The translations under genes and the position numbers were made by a program. Of a DNA stretch of 32,837 bases, positions 7,576 to 27,473 are shown one piece after another. The notes beneath the pieces were generated by a model. That model had not been told where the DNA came from, did no database searches, and worked only from the letters and a program-made list of their open reading frames with translations. Source of the stretch: an uncultured Desulfomicrobium sp. (GTDB lineage Bacteria; Desulfobacterota; Desulfovibrionia; Desulfovibrionales; Desulfomicrobiaceae); contig CALMTS010000498.1 in assembly GCA_937872685.1 (NCBI GenBank), positions 1 to 32,837 of the forward strand. The letters run 5' to 3'. Positions within the stretch are counted from its first letter, which is position 1, and each line of letters starts with the position of its first letter.

Positions 7576-9285
7576 TTACAGGATCTTGAACTTGCGGACC
7601 TTGTTGGTCTTGGCATCGATGACATGCACGCCGCAGGCGATGCAGGGGTCGTAGGAGTGCACGGTGCGCAGGATTTCCACCGGGCGTTCCGCGTCGGCGA
7701 TGGGGGTGCCCATGAGGGCCTCTTCCACGGCGGAGGGCTTGCCGTTGGCGCAGCGCGGGCCCAGGTTCCAGGTGGAGGGGACGACCAGCTGGAAGTTCTC
7801 GATCTTGCCGCCCTTGATCTTGATCCAGTGGCTCAGGCCACCGCGGGGGGCGTTGACGAAGCCGACGCCTTCGGCCTCGTCGGGCATCTTCCAATCCTGG
7901 TAGATCTTGGTGTTGCCGCTTTTCACGTTCTCGGCCAGTTCGTTGACCCAGTCCATCAGCTTGTCGGCGATGACCTTGGTCTCGATGCCGCGGGCTGCGG
8001 TGCGGCCGAGGGTGGAGAACAGGGCCGCAGGGCCGACACCCAGGTAACCAAGGACGTAATCCACGGTCTTCTTCACTTCGGGGTGTCCCTTGCCGTAGGC
8101 GACCAGGACGGTGGCCAAGGGGCCGGTTTCCATGGACAGCTCGTTGTAGCGGGGGGCTTTCATCCAGGAGTACCGGTCGCGGTCCTCATAGGAGGTGTAC
8201 TTGGGTTCGGTCACGCCCTGGTAGGGGTGGTGGGCCTTGTCGCCCTGGTACCAGCTGTGGCGGACGTGTTCGGCGATCAGCTTGGGATCGAAGGCATCGA
8301 CCTGGCCGATGTTGCGGTTGAGGATGACGCCCGGGGGCAGCCAGCGGCTGTTGATATCGCTTTCCACGGCCGGGAATTCGCCGAAGCTCATGAAGTTGGT
8401 GGTTCCGCCGATGGCGGCCCAATCCTTGTAGTAGGACGCCACGGCCAGGAGGTCCGGGATGTAGCACTCGTCGATGAACTTCTTGGTTTCCTCGAAGAGG
8501 CCCACGAACTCGGCCATGCGCTCGCTGGTCAGGGACTCGTAGCAGGTCACGCCACCGGCCACGGTGAACTGGGTGTGCGGGTTCTTGGCGCCGAAGACGG
8601 CCATGGCGCGGGCGGCCTTGACCTGCAGGTGCAGGGCTTCGAGGTAGTGGGCCGTGGCGATGAGGTTGACTTCAGCCGGCAGGTAGTAGGCCTCGTGCCC
8701 GCCCAGGAAGTAGGCGTTGGTGAAGATGCCGAGCTGCCCGGATTCCACCAGGCCCTTGACCTTGTCCTGAACGGCTTTCAGGTCTTCGGCCTTGGTCTGG
8801 CGGGCGGAGATGGAGTTGGCGATGGAGGCGGCCTTGACCGGGTCGGCGGTCAGGGCGCCGGTCACGTCGACCCAGTCCAGGGCGTGCAGATGATAGAAAT
8901 GCACGATGTGGTCATGCAGGAACTGCGCGGCCAGGACGAGGTTGCGGATGAGGCGGGCGTTGTCGGGCAGGTTCTTGTCCACGCCGACGGCGTTGTCCAC
9001 GCAGCGCGTGGAGGCCAGGGCATGGGTGTACGTGCAGACGCCGCAGGAACGCTGGGTGAAGTGCTGGGCGTCGCGCGGGTCGCGGCCCTTGAGGATCAGT
9101 TCCAGACCGCGGAACAGCTGGGAGCTGGACCACACGTTGGTGACTTTGCCCTGGTCCACTTCGACTTCGATCTTGAGATGGCCTTCGATACGGGTAACGG
9201 GGTCCACGATGATGGGCCCCTTGAAGTTTTTATCCATGGGGGTGGCGACGACACCCGGGGCTTGGTTGGGTTTGCAACCGGACAT
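7576..9285 (-). CDS. hynB: periplasmic [NiFe] hydrogenase large subunit
   Basis: The 569-residue catalytic subunit binding the NiFe(CN)2CO centre. The proximal motif RSCGVCT supplies Cys81 and Cys84; the distal motif DPCIACGVH supplies Cys548 and Cys551. Glu34 in TRIEGH corresponds to the proton-relay glutamate. Fifteen residues after His554 (VIDAKTNKVRKFKIL) form the tail removed by the maturation protease. The distal motif has cysteine, not selenocysteine, so this is a [NiFe] and not a [NiFeSe] enzyme. There is no signal peptide; export depends on the Tat signal of the small subunit. The ATG at 9285 has a GGAG site. Nomenclature varies: large is hynB, hydB or hynA in different Desulfovibrio papers. 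Confidence 0.98.
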   Translation of the reverse strand: MSGCKPNQAPGVVATPMDKNFKGPIIVDPVTRIEGHLKIEVEVDQGKVTNVWSSSQLFRGLELILKGRDPRDAQHFTQRSCGVCTYTHALASTRCVDNAVGVDKNLPDNARLIRNLVLAAQFLHDHIVHFYHLHALDWVDVTGALTADPVKAASIANSISARQTKAEDLKAVQDKVKGLVESGQLGIFTNAYFLGGHEAYYLPAEVNLIATAHYLEALHLQVKAARAMAVFGAKNPHTQFTVAGGVTCYESLTSERMAEFVGLFEETKKFIDECYIPDLLAVASYYKDWAAIGGTTNFMSFGEFPAVESDINSRWLPPGVILNRNIGQVDAFDPKLIAEHVRHSWYQGDKAHHPYQGVTEPKYTSYEDRDRYSWMKAPRYNELSMETGPLATVLVAYGKGHPEVKKTVDYVLGYLGVGPAALFSTLGRTAARGIETKVIADKLMDWVNELAENVKSGNTKIYQDWKMPDEAEGVGFVNAPRGGLSHWIKIKGGKIENFQLVVPSTWNLGPRCANGKPSAVEEALMGTPIADAERPVEILRTVHSYDPCIACGVHVIDAKTNKVRKFKIL

Positions 9286-9335
9286 ATGTAATCTCCTCTG
9301 GATTCAGTAAATGTTTAACCTTGAGCAACAGCCAA

Positions 9336-10295
9336 TTACGCTTCTTCGTAGAAGGGGGAGGCGTCGTCCCAGAAATCGGGCTCGCTGCACCCGATGCACG
9401 GATGACCGGCCTGGACCGGCCAGTTCGTCTGGTTGAACTTGACCTTGGGACAGTTGTTGTAGGTCATGGGGCCTTTGCAGCCGAGCTGGTACAGGCACCA
9501 GCCTTTGCGGGCCTCTTCCGAATCAAAGGAGGGGGCGAACTCGCCGGCCTCGTAGTGCGGCAGGCGTTCGCACTGTTCGTGGACAGTGGTGCCGTAGAAC
9601 ATGATGGGGCGGTTGATGTCGTCCATTTCCGGGATGGCCAGGCTGTGGGTCAGCAGGTGGACGATGGTTCCGACCAGGTTGTAGGGGTTGGGCGGGCAAC
9701 CGGGGATGTTCACGGCATTGACGCCGAGATGCTTCAGGGCGTCGTTGATGCCCTTGGCTTCCGTCGGGTTGGGCTTGGCCGCCTGCACGCCGCCGTAGGT
9801 GGCGCAGGTGCCGTAGGAAATGGTCGCGATGGCTTTGGGCACGATTTCGGAACAGATCTCCAGCATGGTGCGTCCGGCGACCTTGCCGTAGATGCCGTTG
9901 TCCTTGGTGGGAATGGCGCCTTCGACCACGCAGAGGAAGCCGTTGGGGGAGTTCACGGCCTGATGCAGGGCTTCTTCCGCCTTGTGACCGGCGGCCGCCA
10001 TGATGGTTTCATGGTAGTCCAGGCTGATGGTGTCCAGAATAAGATCGTCGATAAAGGGTCGAACCGCACGCAGAATGGACTCGGAGCAGCCTGTGCACTC
10101 TGCGTTGTGCAGCCAGACCACGGAAGGACGCTTGGGAGAGGTCATCGCCAGGGCGATTTTGTTGGCGAAGGACGCCTCCATGCCCATGACCGCGGCGATG
10201 GTGGAACAGAACTTCATGAAATCTCGGCGTGAGATCCCACTTTTTTCCAGCCGTTCCTCGGCCCCGGGTTTGCCTAAACCTACCGAAAACTTCAT
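9336..10295 (-). CDS. hynA: periplasmic [NiFe] hydrogenase small subunit, Tat-exported
   Basis: The 319-residue electron-transfer subunit. The Tat signal has its twin arginine at 23-24 (SRRDFMK) and a hydrophobic stretch to about residue 50. Proximal [4Fe-4S] ligands are Cys67, Cys70, Cys164 and Cys200. Distal cluster ligands are His239, Cys242, Cys267 and Cys273. The medial cluster has Cys282, Cys300 and Cys303, with Pro293 where [NiFeSe] enzymes have a fourth cysteine, so it is a [3Fe-4S] cluster as in standard group-1 enzymes. There is no extra proximal cysteine of the O2-tolerant type and no C-terminal membrane helix, so the enzyme should be soluble, O2-sensitive, and probably linked to periplasmic cytochrome c3. 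A GGAGGTG site precedes the ATG. Confidence 0.98.
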
Positions 10296-21832: not shown

Positions 21833-23140
21833 CTATTTGGCGTATTCGTAGCGCTTGACGACCCGGTCCGAAAGCTGCGCATAGGCGTACCCGGCCTGCC
21901 GGGATTTGGCGAAGCGTTCCTCGGCTTCCTGGCTGCACATGTCGCAGCCCTGCACCGGGACGTGCAGCCCCAGGCACCTGGGCGTGTTGGCGGTCTCGCT
22001 CTCGACGATCAGCAGGCCCGGGCAGTGCGGACAGTCCTTGAGGCGTTCGACCTGGGTCTCGGTGATGTCGTCGGTGTCGTAGTAGATGGAGCGGCGGCGC
22101 ACGAAATAGCCGCCCTCGCGCACGGCCTCCGACGGCCGGGGGTTGAAGTAGACCTCGGGGAGCTGGTCGCACAGGGCCGAGAGGTAGTCCATGGTGGATT
22201 TCTGTTCCTTGATCTTCTCGCGGTCGAGCTCCGGTTCCTGCACGGCGGAGAAGTCCACCCCGGCCAGGGCCAGGCTGATGCCGAGGTTGACGTAGGGCAG
22301 GGCCCCCTTGATGGCGTACCCGCCTTCCAGCACGGCGATGTCGGGCTTGAGCATCTCGGTCAGGCGGGCGTAACCCTGGGCCGTGAAGTTCATGTTGGTG
22401 ATGGGGTCCGAGAAGTGGTTGTCCTGGCCGGCGGAGTTGATGATCAGGTCCGGCTTGAAGTGGTCCAGGATGGGCATGACGATGCGCTCGACCGTCATCA
22501 GGTAGCCTTCGTCCGAGGTGCGCGGGGGCATGGGCACGTTGATGGTCCGGCCCATGGCCTTGGGGCCGCCGGATTCCGAAGGGAAGCCCGTGCCGGGGTA
22601 CAGGGTGCGGCCGTCCTGGTGCAGCGAGATGAAGAGCACGTCGGGGTCGTGCCAGTAGATGTCCTGGGTGCCGTCGCCGTGATGGCAGTCCGTGTCGATG
22701 ACGGCCACGCGCAGGTTGCCGTAGTGTTCGCGGATCCACTCGATCATGACGGCTTCGATGTTGATGTTGCAGAAGCCGCGGCTGCCGTGGACCGTGCGCA
22801 TGGCGTGGTGCCCGGGGGGGCGGACCACGGCGAAGGCGCGCTCCCGTTCCTTCTCCATGACCAGCTGGGCGGCGCGGATGACGCCTCCGGCGGAGATGAG
22901 ATGGGAGTCCGTGCAGACGGCCTGCACGTTCGGGAAGCAGAAATGGGGGCGAAGGATGTCCTTCTCCGTGGCGATCAGGGGGCGGTATTCGCGGATGCCC
23001 TCTATGTCGAAGATGCCTTCCTCCCGGAACTGGTCCTGGGTGTACAGAAGGCGCTCCTCCCGCTCGGGGTGGGTCGGTGAGATGGCCCAGTCAAAGGCCG
23101 GGAAGAATATGATGCCGAGGCTGTTGCGTGCGGTGAGCAT
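21833..23140 (-). CDS. histone-deacetylase-family amidohydrolase with C-terminal cysteine module
   Basis: A 435-residue enzyme of the arginase/deacetylase fold. Catalytic parts are intact: RPPGHHA (His111 and His112), zinc ligands Asp151 and His153 in DTDCHHGDG, the third ligand Asp240 in SAGQD, and the catalytic Tyr275 in GGY. Bacterial members (AcuC, acetylpolyamine amidohydrolase) remove acetyl or acyl groups from proteins or small amines. Unusual here is a tail of about 70 residues with CPHC (370-373), Cys389 and CDMC (399-402), which looks like a zinc ribbon. The ATG at 23140 has a GGAGGG site; an alternative ATG at 23155 overlaps the previous stop. It is encoded 11 bp after the hydantoinase gene. 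Confidence 0.9.
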   Translation of the reverse strand: MLTARNSLGIIFFPAFDWAISPTHPEREERLLYTQDQFREEGIFDIEGIREYRPLIATEKDILRPHFCFPNVQAVCTDSHLISAGGVIRAAQLVMEKERERAFAVVRPPGHHAMRTVHGSRGFCNINIEAVMIEWIREHYGNLRVAVIDTDCHHGDGTQDIYWHDPDVLFISLHQDGRTLYPGTGFPSESGGPKAMGRTINVPMPPRTSDEGYLMTVERIVMPILDHFKPDLIINSAGQDNHFSDPITNMNFTAQGYARLTEMLKPDIAVLEGGYAIKGALPYVNLGISLALAGVDFSAVQEPELDREKIKEQKSTMDYLSALCDQLPEVYFNPRPSEAVREGGYFVRRRSIYYDTDDITETQVERLKDCPHCPGLLIVESETANTPRCLGLHVPVQGCDMCSQEAEERFAKSRQAGYAYAQLSDRVVKRYEYAK

Positions 23141-23151
23141 GGTCCCTCCGT

Positions 23152-24813
23152 TCATGGCTCCAGGGTGGTGATGACGCCGGGCCGCATCTGGCAGCGGACT
23201 CGGATGTTGCGGCCGATGGTGTAATGCCCCTCGACCATGTTGAAGGCGTCGGCCTGGATGACCTGGATATCGCCCTCCTCGGCCGGGATGCCCTGCCGGT
23301 CCAGTTCGGCGCGCAGCATGGTGGTGGCGTCGTGCACGGCCTCCTCCAGGGTGTAGGTGCGCTTGACGGTCTTGTGGATGCCCAGGCCCGGCACCGTGAA
23401 GCTGCCGCGCGAGGTGTCCACGGTCAGGACCAGGGACTGGGTCGGCCGCGTCAGGCCCGCGCCGATGGCGTTGGCCACCTGGGCGTATCTGGGCGCGACG
23501 ACGGGCAGGCCGAAGGTTTCCTCCAGCAGCGGCGCCATGGCCTCGGCCGGTCCGCCGATGACCAGGATGCGCTGGGGCTTGACCGTGCGGTCTTCCAGGA
23601 TCTCCTGGATGGTGTAGACGGGGCGGGCGTTGATGGCGTCGATGAAGGCGGTGATCTTGCGCTTCAGGATGGACATGGCCAGGTTCACGGCCTGTTCCGC
23701 GCATTCGCGGGCCGAGAGCCCCTGGATCATGGCCACTTCCTTGATGCCCTTGGCCGAGCGTTCGCGGTCGCCGAAGGAGGCGTGCCCCAGGACGTTCATG
23801 GCGTCCATCAGGGCCGGGGCCGGGCCGCCGGCGGCCATGCACGGGCCGTGGCGGTCGGGGCCGACGCGCAGCTGCCCGTCGCGGGAGCTGATGAAGGAGT
23901 CGCCGCCGATGCCGATGGATTCGACCTTCAGGGCGCGCACCAGGGTCGGGTGTTCGCCGATGGAGATGCCGTCGCGCTCGAGCAGCGGGATGCCGTCCAG
24001 CAGCACGGCCATGTCCGTGGTGGTGCCGCCGATGTCGAGGATGAGGGCGTCCTCGGCCGCCGGGGCAGTGCTCAGGATGCCCATGACCGAGGCCGCGGGG
24101 CCGGAAAAGATGGACTGCACCGGGATCTCCCGGGCCAGCTTCAGGGGCATGGTTCCGCCGTCGGCCTTGACGATGTTGATGTCGGCCTGGATGTTCAGGT
24201 CCCGAAGGCTCTGCTCCAGGGCGTCGGCAAAGGTGTTGAAGGTCCGCCAGACGGCCGCGTTGTAGTAGACGGTGCTCACGCGCCGGCCGAAGTTCAGGGA
24301 CTCGGACACGCGGTGGCCCTGGGTCACGAAGTCGGCCTGGGGGGCGAGGGCGTCGGCGATGGCGATTTCCTGCTCGGGATTGCGGGTGCAGAACTTGCCC
24401 ACCACGCCGTAGACGCGGATGCCGTCCTCGCGGCAGCGAGCGGCCATGGGCTTGATCTGCTCCACCCGGGCCTTGGCCGAGATGGCCCCGCGGTGGTCGA
24501 CGCACCCGGAGAGCACGTGGTACTGCGAGCCCAGGGCGTAGGCGCCGGCGTTGATGCCCGGGCCGGGGATGACGAACATGCCGACCTTTTCGGTGCGGCC
24601 CGTGACGATGGAGTTGGTCGAGAGGGTGGTGCTCAGGTTGAGGGTGCGGATGTCCTCTCCCTTGCAATCCTTCAGGATGAGGCACAGCACCTCGGAGATG
24701 GTCGCGAGCAGGTTGTCGTGATCCGTGGGGACCTTGGCCATGGCTTCCACCCGACCGTCGCGGATGCAGACGCCGTCCGTGTGGGTTCCGCCGACATCGA
24801 TTCCGATAAGCAT
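23152..24813 (-). CDS. hydantoinase/oxoprolinase-family ATP-dependent amidohydrolase (HyuA-like)
   Basis: A 553-residue protein of the HyuA/5-oxoprolinase/acetone-carboxylase-beta family. The actin-like ATPase fold is marked by GIDVGGTHTDG at residues 4-14, LSTTLSTNSIV near 69, and the second phosphate loop LILDIGGTTTDMAV in the middle, with IGIGGDS and VIGGPAEAM later. Family members hydrolyse cyclic amides (hydantoins, oxoproline) or activate ketones, using ATP. The usual HyuB partner is absent; instead the next gene is a deacetylase-family amidohydrolase, so both may act on amide bonds of one substrate. An AAGGAT site precedes the ATG at 24813. The substrate is unknown. Confidence 0.9.
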   Translation of the reverse strand: MLIGIDVGGTHTDGVCIRDGRVEAMAKVPTDHDNLLATISEVLCLILKDCKGEDIRTLNLSTTLSTNSIVTGRTEKVGMFVIPGPGINAGAYALGSQYHVLSGCVDHRGAISAKARVEQIKPMAARCREDGIRVYGVVGKFCTRNPEQEIAIADALAPQADFVTQGHRVSESLNFGRRVSTVYYNAAVWRTFNTFADALEQSLRDLNIQADINIVKADGGTMPLKLAREIPVQSIFSGPAASVMGILSTAPAAEDALILDIGGTTTDMAVLLDGIPLLERDGISIGEHPTLVRALKVESIGIGGDSFISSRDGQLRVGPDRHGPCMAAGGPAPALMDAMNVLGHASFGDRERSAKGIKEVAMIQGLSARECAEQAVNLAMSILKRKITAFIDAINARPVYTIQEILEDRTVKPQRILVIGGPAEAMAPLLEETFGLPVVAPRYAQVANAIGAGLTRPTQSLVLTVDTSRGSFTVPGLGIHKTVKRTYTLEEAVHDATTMLRAELDRQGIPAEEGDIQVIQADAFNMVEGHYTIGRNIRVRCQMRPGVITTLEP

Positions 24814-24879
24814 ATATCCGATCCTTGGGGCTGACGGTTGGCCGCGGCGGGTGCCGGGGCTTCCGGGTGGCTTCGGCGG

Positions 24880-24931
24880 GCCCTCTTCTCTGCGAGAGGG
24901 CGGGACGAAGTCTTCGGACTTGTGTTTTTTT
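24880..24931 (+). terminator. two tandem hairpins with T-run, upstream of the IMP-family gene
   Basis: The first hairpin pairs GCCCTCT (24880-24886) with AGAGGGC (24895-24901). The second is AC(G)AAGTC, a TTCG loop, GACTTGT (24905-24923), followed by G and seven T. The second has all parts of a plus-strand intrinsic terminator, yet no plus-strand gene lies upstream, so it would act on a short leader RNA of the gene at 25068. Confidence 0.55.
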
Positions 24932-25067
24932 GCCGCATGCAGCACCTCTGCCCGCAGGCTTTGGTGCGTGTGGCCTCACAGGATGAAACACAAGTTGCTT
25001 TTTCAGGATGCATATTTACCGGACTGCAGGCGAAGCGCAAGCAGAATTCCGTAAACGGAGGGATATG

Positions 25068-25859: not shown

Positions 25860-26069
25860 TCAGATGTCGATTTCGAGCGAGGAGACGGGGGGGACGAGGT
25901 CTCCCTTGGCGTTGTACAGGGACCCCGAGTCCAGGTCGGGGCCGGCGGCCTGCTCCTGATAGGGGTTCAGGTTTTTCTGATGCTTCTTCCTCTGGTGGTT
26001 CAGGTCCCAGGAGGGCTGCCCGTCCTTCCATCGCCCTTGGGAATCCGATCTGAGCACGCGTAAACTCAT
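25860..26069 (-). CDS. small hydrophilic protein of unknown function with sigma-28-like promoter
   Basis: A 69-residue polar protein with no signal peptide or membrane segment. The first half is basic and Gln/Asn-rich (NHQRKKHQKNLNPYQEQ); the end is acidic (SSLEIDI). I do not recognise a family. Coding is supported by a strong GGAGGCGGGC ribosome site before the ATG, by a promoter-like element at 26138-26164 placed correctly for it, and by a stop that exactly meets the stop of the convergent phosphatase gene. The sigma-28-type promoter suggests that it is made together with late flagellar genes. Confidence 0.68.
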   Translation of the reverse strand: MSLRVLRSDSQGRWKDGQPSWDLNHQRKKHQKNLNPYQEQAAGPDLDSGSLYNAKGDLVPPVSSLEIDI

Positions 26070-26112
26070 GCCCGCCTCCTTGGCCGTCCCTGGCCAGGGT
26101 TGTTGCGTCGAA

Positions 26113-26132
26113 ACAGGGCGTCCATGCCCTGT
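26113..26132 (-). other. 5' leader hairpin of the 69-residue protein mRNA
   Basis: ACAGGGC (26113-26119) pairs perfectly with GCCCTGT (26126-26132) around a 6-base loop. It would sit at the very 5' end of a transcript started from the sigma-28-like promoter, a position that often stabilises mRNA. Confidence 0.45.
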
Positions 26133-26137
26133 ATTTT

Positions 26138-26164
26138 CTATCGGACGTTCCGCGAAAAACTTGA
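26138..26164 (-). promoter_or_regulatory. sigma-28 (FliA)-type promoter for the 69-residue protein
   Basis: The minus strand has TCAAGTTT, 11 bp, then TCCGATAG. The FliA consensus is TAAAGTTT-N11-GCCGATAA. The spacing is exact, with 7/8 and 6/8 matches. The predicted start is about 60 bp before the ATG. Confidence 0.62.
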
Positions 26165-26186
26165 ATGCATCCCTTCCCGCGCATGC

Positions 26187-26218
26187 AAAAAGGCCCCGGA
26201 TGAAACCATCCGGGGCCT
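26187..26218 (-). terminator. intrinsic terminator of the repeat-protein gene
   Basis: AGGCCCCGGAT (26191-26201) pairs perfectly with ATCCGGGGCCT (26208-26218) around a 6-base loop. The minus strand continues with TTTT after the stem. It lies 43 bp after the stop codon and insulates the next sigma-28-like promoter. Confidence 0.88.
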
Positions 26219-26261
26219 GATTGCGGAGGAGTTCCCCACAATGAGCGTCATGTCCGGGCCG

Positions 26262-26543
26262 TCATACCATGCGGTTCATAAGCGTGCCCTGACCCGTATA
26301 CTCGGGCATGAGCACGTCCTTCTGGAATTCGTACGAGTTGTCGGGCCGGCAACAGCCGGCGCCGGTGTTCATGTAGTCGATGGTCGTGGCGACCACGGCC
26401 GCCCCGAATGTCTCCTTGTCGAACGCCTGGGACGCCGGGGACGCCGAGCCATGCATGTAGTCCATGGTCTTGGCGACAACGGCGGCCCCGAAGGTCTGCC
26501 TGTCGTAGATCGGGGAAGTGTTCCCCATTGCCTGAATGTCCAT
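26262..26543 (-). CDS. small protein with duplicated TFGAAVVA-T-DYM repeat, possible motility protein
   Basis: A 93-residue protein built on two copies of one motif: YDRQTFGAAVVAKTMDYMH at residues 13-31 and FDKETFGAAVVATTIDYMN at 41-59, with 13 of 19 positions identical. The N-terminus MDIQAM is reminiscent of short putative motility proteins of the YjfB type (weak match). An adjacent cysteine pair (64-65) and a polar tail follow. The ATG at 26543 has a strong GGGAGGAG site; an ATG eight codons upstream does not. A sigma-28-like promoter lies 40 bp upstream and a strong terminator follows, so it is an independent transcript. Export by the flagellar apparatus is possible but unproven. Confidence 0.8.
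   Translation of the reverse strand: MDIQAMGNTSPIYDRQTFGAAVVAKTMDYMHGSASPASQAFDKETFGAAVVATTIDYMNTGAGCCRPDNSYEFQKDVLMPEYTGQGTLMNRMV
26367..26507 (-). repeat. internal tandem duplication in the small repeat protein
   Basis: Repeat 1 is encoded at 26451-26507 and repeat 2 at 26367-26423, an offset of 84 bp. The similarity is visible in DNA as well as protein. Confidence 0.8.
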
Positions 26544-26582
26544 GACTCCTCCCTTTGTTGGAAACATGACGCCTGATTGGAA

Positions 26583-26610
26583 TGATCGGCGGGAAGGGCG
26601 GAAAACTTGA
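26583..26610 (-). promoter_or_regulatory. sigma-28 (FliA)-type promoter for the repeat protein
   Basis: The minus strand shows TCAAGTTT and GCCGATCA (7/8 to GCCGATAA) with a spacer one base longer than the E. coli ideal (N16 instead of N15 counted from the TCAA box). It fits neatly in the 84-bp gap between mqnA and the repeat gene. Confidence 0.65.
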
Positions 26611-26627: not shown

Positions 26628-27473
26628 TCAGGAAGAAAACCAGCGCAGGGCGGGCATGCCGGGCAGAAGGCCCCGGCTGGTGCAGCATTGGCCGAAGAGC
26701 GCCAAGCCGGCCTGTTCGCGGGGGCCGAGGTCGTAGTTCATGGCGCGCCAGTAGCGCAGCAGGGCCGGGCTGGTCAGCCAGCCGGGCAGGTCGGGGAGGC
26801 GGGAGAGGGTCTCGAAATGGCTGTCCAGTTCTGCCGTGATGGCCGCGATGTGCCCGTGCAGGCGCTTGAGAAGGGCGCGACTCTCGGCCGTCATGCCGCG
26901 CCGCACGATCCATACGGCGAAGACGAAGGGCAGGCCGGTCCACTCGGCCCATTCCGTGGCCAGGTCGATGATGCGCCAGCCTTGGGGCGGATGCACGAAG
27001 TGGCGCAGGGCGATGTTGCCGATCTCCAGGAAGGGCCGCCCCGTGGCGAGCCCGGCGCCCGGTTCGACCAGCTGCCACCGCGGTTCGGGCAATCCCCATT
27101 TCTGGGACCAGAGCACCTTCAGCAGGGCCGTCGAGGTGGCCGAGGCCCCGGTCAGGCAGACCGGGCCGGGGTTGCGCGCGAGCCAGGCGGGCAGGTCTTC
27201 CGGGGGGACGGGGGAGAGAAAAAGAACGCTCTGCACTTCGCTGTGGGCGCAGATGGAAGCACCGGGCAGCAGTTCGTAGCTCTCGGCGCGGAACAGGTAT
27301 TCGAAGGACGAGGACGGCGAGATGTCGAGATCGCCCGTGGCCAGGGCTGCGTTGAGCCGGCTGGGGTGCCCCGGATCGTAGCTGAAATCCGGCCCTTCCG
27401 GGCAGACATCTTCCAGGAGATGGAAGATGTGCCAGATGTTGAGGTAGTCGATTCTGCCGATGCGAAGTGTCAT
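26628..27473 (-). CDS. mqnA: MqnA, chorismate dehydratase (futalosine menaquinone pathway)
   Basis: A 281-residue protein with the fold of periplasmic binding proteins but no signal peptide, matching MqnA: IGRIDYLNIWHIFHLLE at residues 5-21, LNAALATGDLDISPSSSFEYL at about 40-60, CLTGASATSTALLKVL at 105-120, and LEIGNIALR at 149-157. It removes water from chorismate to give 3-enolpyruvylbenzoate, the first step of the futalosine route to menaquinone, which many Desulfovibrionales use. No other mqn gene is present in the window. It starts 7 bp after the adk terminator, so it needs its own promoter within or near adk, or read-through. Confidence 0.9.
   Translation of the reverse strand: MTLRIGRIDYLNIWHIFHLLEDVCPEGPDFSYDPGHPSRLNAALATGDLDISPSSSFEYLFRAESYELLPGASICAHSEVQSVLFLSPVPPEDLPAWLARNPGPVCLTGASATSTALLKVLWSQKWGLPEPRWQLVEPGAGLATGRPFLEIGNIALRHFVHPPQGWRIIDLATEWAEWTGLPFVFAVWIVRRGMTAESRALLKRLHGHIAAITAELDSHFETLSRLPDLPGWLTSPALLRYWRAMNYDLGPREQAGLALFGQCCTSRGLLPGMPALRWFSS

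Follow-up and report, generated by a model that had tools for sequence, protein, structure and literature searches.

Two small genes lie side by side on the minus strand of a 32,837-nucleotide contig from an uncultured Desulfomicrobium sp. (CALMTS010000498.1, assembly GCA_937872685.1), the whole stretch of which is referred to here as the window. Gene A (26262-26543, minus strand) encodes a 93-residue protein displaying two TFGAAVVxxTxDYM repeats and a YEFQKDVL...GQG tail, with codon-position bias evident in its relatives, and is preceded by the ribosome site AGGGAGGAG (26546-26554, minus strand). Gene B (25860-26069, minus strand) encodes a 69-residue protein restricted to the window's genus and likewise shows codon-position bias. 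An earlier note on this DNA had placed a sigma-28-type promoter ahead of each of these ORFs, and both were found at exactly the positions it gave: TCAAGTTT-N12-GCCGATCA for gene A (26583-26610, minus strand), kept in the genus and in other genera, and TCAAGTTT-N11-TCCGATAG for gene B (26138-26164, minus strand), kept in the genus. The additional spacer nucleotide that it had described for gene A was confirmed, and the promoter-to-ribosome-site distances come to 28 nt for gene A and 56 nt for gene B when counted from the end of the −10 box. Between the two units stands a strong intrinsic terminator, as had been claimed (26187-26218, minus strand; 26191-26218 plus a T run).

The main ORFs of the window, when scanned, included no member of a flagellar family, in agreement with the earlier reading. 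Directly upstream of the gene A promoter, a menaquinone biosynthesis (VitK2_biosynth) protein is encoded at 26628-27473 (minus strand), with 17 bp between its stop codon and the −35 box. The large and small subunits of a [NiFe] hydrogenase occupy 7576-10295 (minus strand), the large subunit ending in DPCIACGVH...VRKFKIL with Cys, not selenocysteine. A 1052-residue ORF at 21833-24991 (minus strand) carries a histone-deacetylase-like domain at residues 696-895.

Sigma-28 Promoters and the Flagellar Regulon

Both genes match the consensus used, TAAAGTTT-N11-GCCGATAA, at a proper distance from the gene. When compared with TCAAGTTT-N-GCCGATAA, the gene A promoter has one mismatch (spacer 12) and the gene B promoter two (spacer 11). 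The exact pattern TCAAGTTT-N10-13-CCGAT occurs only three times in the 4.08 Mb draft genome and is absent from the reversed control; two of the three occurrences are those at this locus, 446 bp apart. Relaxing the search to ≤3 mismatches retrieved 13 genome matches versus 19 in the reversed control for a spacer of 11, which alone is non-significant, and 18 versus 5 for a spacer of 12. Loose matches thus arise by chance in a genome of this size, which lends some weight to the notion that the sigma-28 motifs are fortuitous and that the genes are transcribed by other means. A loose match is by itself insufficient, and the significance of the motifs resides in their position and conservation.

With respect to position, the genome-wide scan that the earlier note had proposed yielded well-placed matches, pointing into a nearby gene start, ahead of flaG, a DVU0524-family FlgM-associated gene, and two unnamed genes encoding proteins of 153 and 240 residues, in addition to genes A and B. 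With respect to conservation, 12 of the 13 copies of the gene A promoter within the genus score 14-16 of 16 (the remaining copy scores 11), and gene B is present together with its promoter in 11 further genomes of the genus. Examination of 86 gene A loci identified a score of ≥12 of 16 upstream of 53, compared with 19 of 430 shuffles, and the motif usually lies 67-80 nt 5′ of the start codon of the homologues. In the same scan, the motif was not found ahead of gene A in genera g4, g7, g20, g21, and g24. Most gene A loci of these genera also show weak or absent end pairing (the pairing is described below), and in g4 the gene comes after one whose end looks, by eye, like murA.

The distribution of gene A follows that of flagellin. 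Single-sequence searching retrieved gene A from 26 of 41 genomes, and a profile search of the order extended this to 137 of 247 genomes, spread over 34 of 51 genera; outside the order, three genomes (among 247 of the phylum) possess the gene. Gene A occurs in 137 of 215 flagellin-positive genomes and in 0 of 32 flagellin-less genomes (Fisher P = 3e-13, uncorrected for kinship). Given that its neighbours vary from genus to genus, the tie between gene A and flagella consists of promoter and distribution rather than gene order. A chance origin of the motifs is therefore very improbable: they are intergenic, their position and sequence are conserved both within the genus and outside it, and gene A is restricted to flagellated genomes. 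Both genes are very probably transcribed by FliA RNA polymerase, and their membership in the FliA regulon, which the earlier note had proposed, is supported by the genome-wide scan, by cross-genus conservation of the promoter, and by the flagellin-linked distribution of gene A.

The scan also drew attention to the two unnamed genes. The 153-residue protein is a Ser/Ala-rich coiled coil that starts with MDI and belongs to no family (G000:C152:15738-16270; L001, L088), and the 240-residue protein is lipoprotein-like, has no Pfam/NCBIfam family, and is preceded by a sigma-28 match with one mismatch (G000:C225:18900-19667; L055, L087). Ahead of the main flagellin gene of the window genome, TGGCAC-N5-CTGC was read by eye, a motif that is sigma-54-like, not sigma-28. 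The flagellin gene and the divergent flaG (sigma-28) seem to use different sigma factors (G000:C437:56690-57100; L085).

Proteins Encoded by Genes A and B

No Pfam, NCBIfam, or PHROG family applies to either protein, and the description of both as uncharacterised therefore stands. For genes A and B alike, third-position changes exceed second-position changes in most comparisons of relatives, and at this level both ORFs are shown to evolve as coding sequence. In the gene A protein, a predicted helix (D-K-Q-T-F-G-A-x-V-V-x-K-T-L-D-Y-M-N) occurs once or twice, together with a linker rich in Ser, Gly, and Asn and a tail reading Y-D-F-Q-K-x-V-L ... G-K-G. Many genera carry one FGAAVVxKTLDYMN unit; in others, among them the window's genus, it is tandemly duplicated. 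An AlphaFold prediction for the gene A protein, made with 12 sequences, placed helices across the repeats with a pLDDT of 49, too poor for a fold search. Genes A and B probably encode accessory factors of the flagellum that are small and for the most part flexible. Gene A represents an unannotated, order-wide small-protein family, and the flagellar regulon gains it as such.

Pairing of the Gene A mRNA Ends

The leader of gene A just 3′ of the promoter is complementary to sequence just 3′ of the stop codon, such that the whole gene is enclosed. In the window, the 5′ arm of this mRNA-closing helix, GGCGTCATGTTT (26562-26573, minus strand), begins 9 nt past the −10 box, and the 3′ arm, GGACATGACGCT (26244-26255, minus strand), begins 6 nt past the stop codon. 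A hairpin, ATTGTGGGG-AACTC-CTCCGCAAT (26220-26242, minus strand), lies 3′ of the 3′ arm and reads ATTGYGG...CCGCAA in relatives. Across loci, the 5′ arm has a median start 9 nt after the −10 box and a median end 23 nt before the start codon, and the 3′ arm has a median start 10 nt after the stop. The ribosome site lies outside the helix, 3′ of the 5′ arm. The paired sequences differ by genus: GGCGTCATGTTCCG/CGGAACATGACGCT in the window's genus, GCGTCATTCCCCGT/GCGGGGAATGACGC in g17, GGTGTTGTTTTCGGCCT/AGGCCGAAAACAACGCC in g10, and GGCGTTATTTCCGAC/GTCGGAAATAGCGCC in g22. A gene A homologue from another family of the phylum displays the same layout, with GGCGTTGTTTCC complementary to GGAAATAACGCC.

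Pairing was evaluated using ungapped helices and between-genus permutation, which replaced a noisy duplex-energy test. When 3′ flanks were swapped among 27 genera, the best helix became weaker, and the native mean was reached in 0 of 10,000 permutations. In an anchored version, the cores GCGT (leaders) and ACGC (tails) were located independently at 31 loci from 10 genera, and the next seven positions were scored. Native combinations gave 5.42 pairs of 7, compared with 3.98 (sd 0.38) for exchanged ones (0 of 20,000), and helix position 4 was occupied by G-C in 11 cases, T-A in 8, and C-G in 6. At loci picked by promoter score, pairing of the leader with its own 3′ flank was stronger than with stretches of the ORF that it precedes in all 16 of 16 genera, and in 15 of 16 it was also stronger than with DNA far downstream. 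Unconstrained folding of whole mRNAs, again from loci picked by promoter score and tracking those helices found by complementarity, had the arms paired in 42 of 46 loci and 14 of 15 genera. The gene A mRNA of the window folds with a z of −5.3, and the helix is present in both its minimum-energy and centroid structures. An Rfam search returned sub-threshold matches only.

A short core common to many genera (GGCGT near the 5′ end and ACGCC near the 3′ end) could suggest that a dimeric protein binds the arms as DNA, or that they are the leftover inverted repeat of an insertion, rather than RNA structure. Beyond the core, however, the sequence varies by genus and pairing is kept through two-sided changes. 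A protein site would preserve sequence and insertion repeats would not covary, rendering either origin highly unlikely. From these comparisons, a covarying helix predicted to join the 5′ leader and the 3′ UTR of the gene A mRNA is well supported.

Possible Roles of the Gene A Helix

For sigma-28 promoters, a 5′ arm in this position is expected to start close to the transcription start. The 3′ UTR of gene A would then tie down the 5′ end of its own mRNA, and at the open end of the helix the ribosome site and stop codon would sit near each other. In silico, neither deletion nor shuffling of the 3′ arm altered the predicted accessibility of the ribosome site (0.38 with the arm versus 0.36 without it), and no translational effect is thus visible by folding. 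As far as such predictions reach, this argues against a switch by which gene A would have its ribosome site hidden or freed.

A translational switch of the icaR/hok/AapA type, which would leave the full-length mRNA inert until 3′ trimming or an RNase III cut, has the same general layout of a small ORF enclosed by paired mRNA ends (PMC3868564; PMC6733600). In the known cases, however, the 3′ end masks the ribosome site, whereas here the 5′ arm ends upstream of it. The indifference of predicted accessibility to the 3′ arm also speaks against such a switch, as does the gene A protein, which is Ser/Gly/Asn-rich and soluble-looking and no membrane toxin. Overall, we consider a switch unlikely.

RppH and RNase E depend on a 5′ end that is single-stranded, hence the stabilization conferred by 5′ structure (PMC3997798). 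Given this requirement and an unmasked ribosome site, protection of the 5′ end by the mRNA's own 3′ UTR is favoured. Starting from a guessed transcription start, we tentatively suggest that the helix closes the gene A mRNA and may act mainly in protection: a tied 5′ end would shield the intact molecule from 5′-end-dependent decay. The closeness of stop codon and ribosome site might confer a second benefit, perhaps by favouring re-initiation.

A related question is posed by YjfB (Pfam PF14070, putative motility protein), a small, uncharacterised protein assigned to a sigma-28 sub-module by phylogenetic profiles (PMC11607428). YjfB and the gene A protein have in common an MD start and KxxxD spacing. 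The single clear YjfB locus examined (L160) displays a 9-bp leader-tail complement (9 of 2,000 shuffles) together with a sigma-28 promoter and a tail reading TGKGVNLDKLV, and the TGKGxxLxxxV pattern of this tail is among the likenesses to gene A. PF14070 weakly matched 3 of 18 gene A proteins, the best with an E of 0.079, which is under the curated Pfam cut-off. Profile-profile comparison of the two families gave an E of 0.001 yet a probability of 21%, and another alignment gave 2%. A search around L160 for further YjfB genomes found none. The gene A protein may possibly be a distant relative of YjfB, and we do not claim membership. A more far-reaching, and in our view doubtful, proposition is that gene A represents an ancient flagellar mRNA class shared with true YjfB genes and closed by 5′-3′ pairing, of which only complete mRNAs would persist and be efficiently translated. 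If true, this would amount to an RNA-only version of the closed-loop mRNA of eukaryotes, bringing the stop codon and ribosome site together.

A CsrA-Type Leader in Gene B

Of the 41 genomes searched, gene B was identified in 12 only, all of them among the 16 that belong to the genus. Its leader contains two hairpins with ANGGAN hexaloops: hairpin 1, ACAGGGC-ATGGAC-GCCCTGT (26113-26132, minus strand), and hairpin 2, TGGCC-AGGGAC-GGCCA (26081-26096, minus strand), the second loop base of the latter being G, C, T, or A in relatives. A third ANGGA is included in the ribosome site, AAGGAGG (26075-26081, minus strand). The ANGGAN hexaloop is a CsrA/RsmE site (PMC7652899). Among 11 genomes, the loop of hairpin 1 reads ATGGAC, AGGGAA, or AGGGAC, and that of hairpin 2 reads AGGGAC, ACGGAC, ATGGAC, AAGGAC, or AAGGAA; the A and the GGA are thereby fixed, with both N positions free. 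The loops are not kept in the twelfth genome with gene B (L015), and in L014, which has diverged, hairpin 1 is retained with changes on both sides of the stem. The stems are nearly invariant, with two-sided change at 2 of 12 pairs and in one sequence only. The ribosome site contains AAGGA in 7 of 12 genomes, including that of the window, and GAGGA in the other five. A covariance model of the leader convincingly retrieved only gene B genes; the two best further matches appeared chance-like on inspection. At a gene A homologue outside the order (L189), an ANGGAN-like loop, GCC-AAGGAC-GGT, was observed about 35-50 nt before the start, and a CsrA-type element may therefore occur with gene A elsewhere.

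In the window genome, csrA (79 aa) adjoins fliW, after flgK-flgL in the flagellar cluster. As the ANGGAN hexaloops, the AAGGAGG, and csrA-fliW are all present, gene B has the look of a late gene repressed by CsrA and relieved by FliW. CsrA would bridge the leader hairpins and the ribosome site and block translation, and FliW would titrate CsrA and release it. We infer that gene B probably stays untranslated for as long as CsrA occupies its leader, in the manner of Bacillus hag.

A sigma-28-driven leader bearing two or three ANGGA sites could also befit a CsrA sponge, or a transcript acting as regulatory RNA besides coding, that frees CsrA targets late in flagellar assembly, and sigma-28-dependent, UTR-derived small RNAs regulating flagella are described for E. 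coli (PMC10578931). Each gene B transcript, however, offers two hairpins only, sequence conservation marks the ORF as coding, and the ribosome site is overlapped by the third ANGGA, as befits a repressed target. A sponge is accordingly an improbable function for this transcript. With repression by CsrA as the preferred reading, gene B would be a likely CsrA target besides flagellin.

Significance and Comparison with Known Systems

Taken together, genes A and B are likely to be two monocistronic late (FliA, sigma-28) flagellar small-protein genes, each under its own RNA-level control. The promoters of the earlier note were confirmed and its regulon assignment was supported, and it had missed the 5′-3′ pairing of gene A and the CsrA-type leader of gene B. 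Two features are new within the literature searched: an order-wide sigma-28 small-protein gene with strongly covarying mRNA end pairing, and another gene, confined to the genus, whose leader is of the CsrA type. It is rare for the ends of a protein-coding bacterial mRNA to be joined by a helix maintained across many genera. To our knowledge, the described cases of mRNA end pairing block the ribosome site. Since that of gene A lies outside the helix, the locus offers a direct way to ask whether particular bacterial mRNAs are protected or circularised via their own 3′ UTR.

Within the window genome, flaG and the DVU0524-family FlgM-associated gene have the promoter type of genes A and B in common. 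Unlike genes A and B, they have leaders of 22-31 nt with neither an end-pairing helix nor ANGGAN hairpins, and no closing helix was found in the other sigma-28 genes of this genome. Gene B resembles the flagellin leaders of CsrA-FliW systems (Bacillus hag and Campylobacter flaA), which combine ANGGAN hexaloop hairpins with a GGA-bearing ribosome site, and csrA and fliW reside in the flagellar cluster in those systems as in the window genome. The difference is that the candidate target here is a genus-specific 69-residue gene, not flagellin. The closest parallels to gene A are the icaR (Staphylococcus aureus), hok, and AapA mRNAs, likewise small and displaying pairing of the 3′ UTR with the 5′ leader across the ORF (PMC3868564, PMC6733600); in the AapA family, the pairing is also conserved in related species (PMC6733600). 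In contrast to these, the 3′ UTR of gene A pairs upstream of the ribosome site, and masking is not predicted from either position or folding; the gene belongs to the flagellar regulon and encodes neither a repressor nor a toxin; and its covariation spans the order and beyond.
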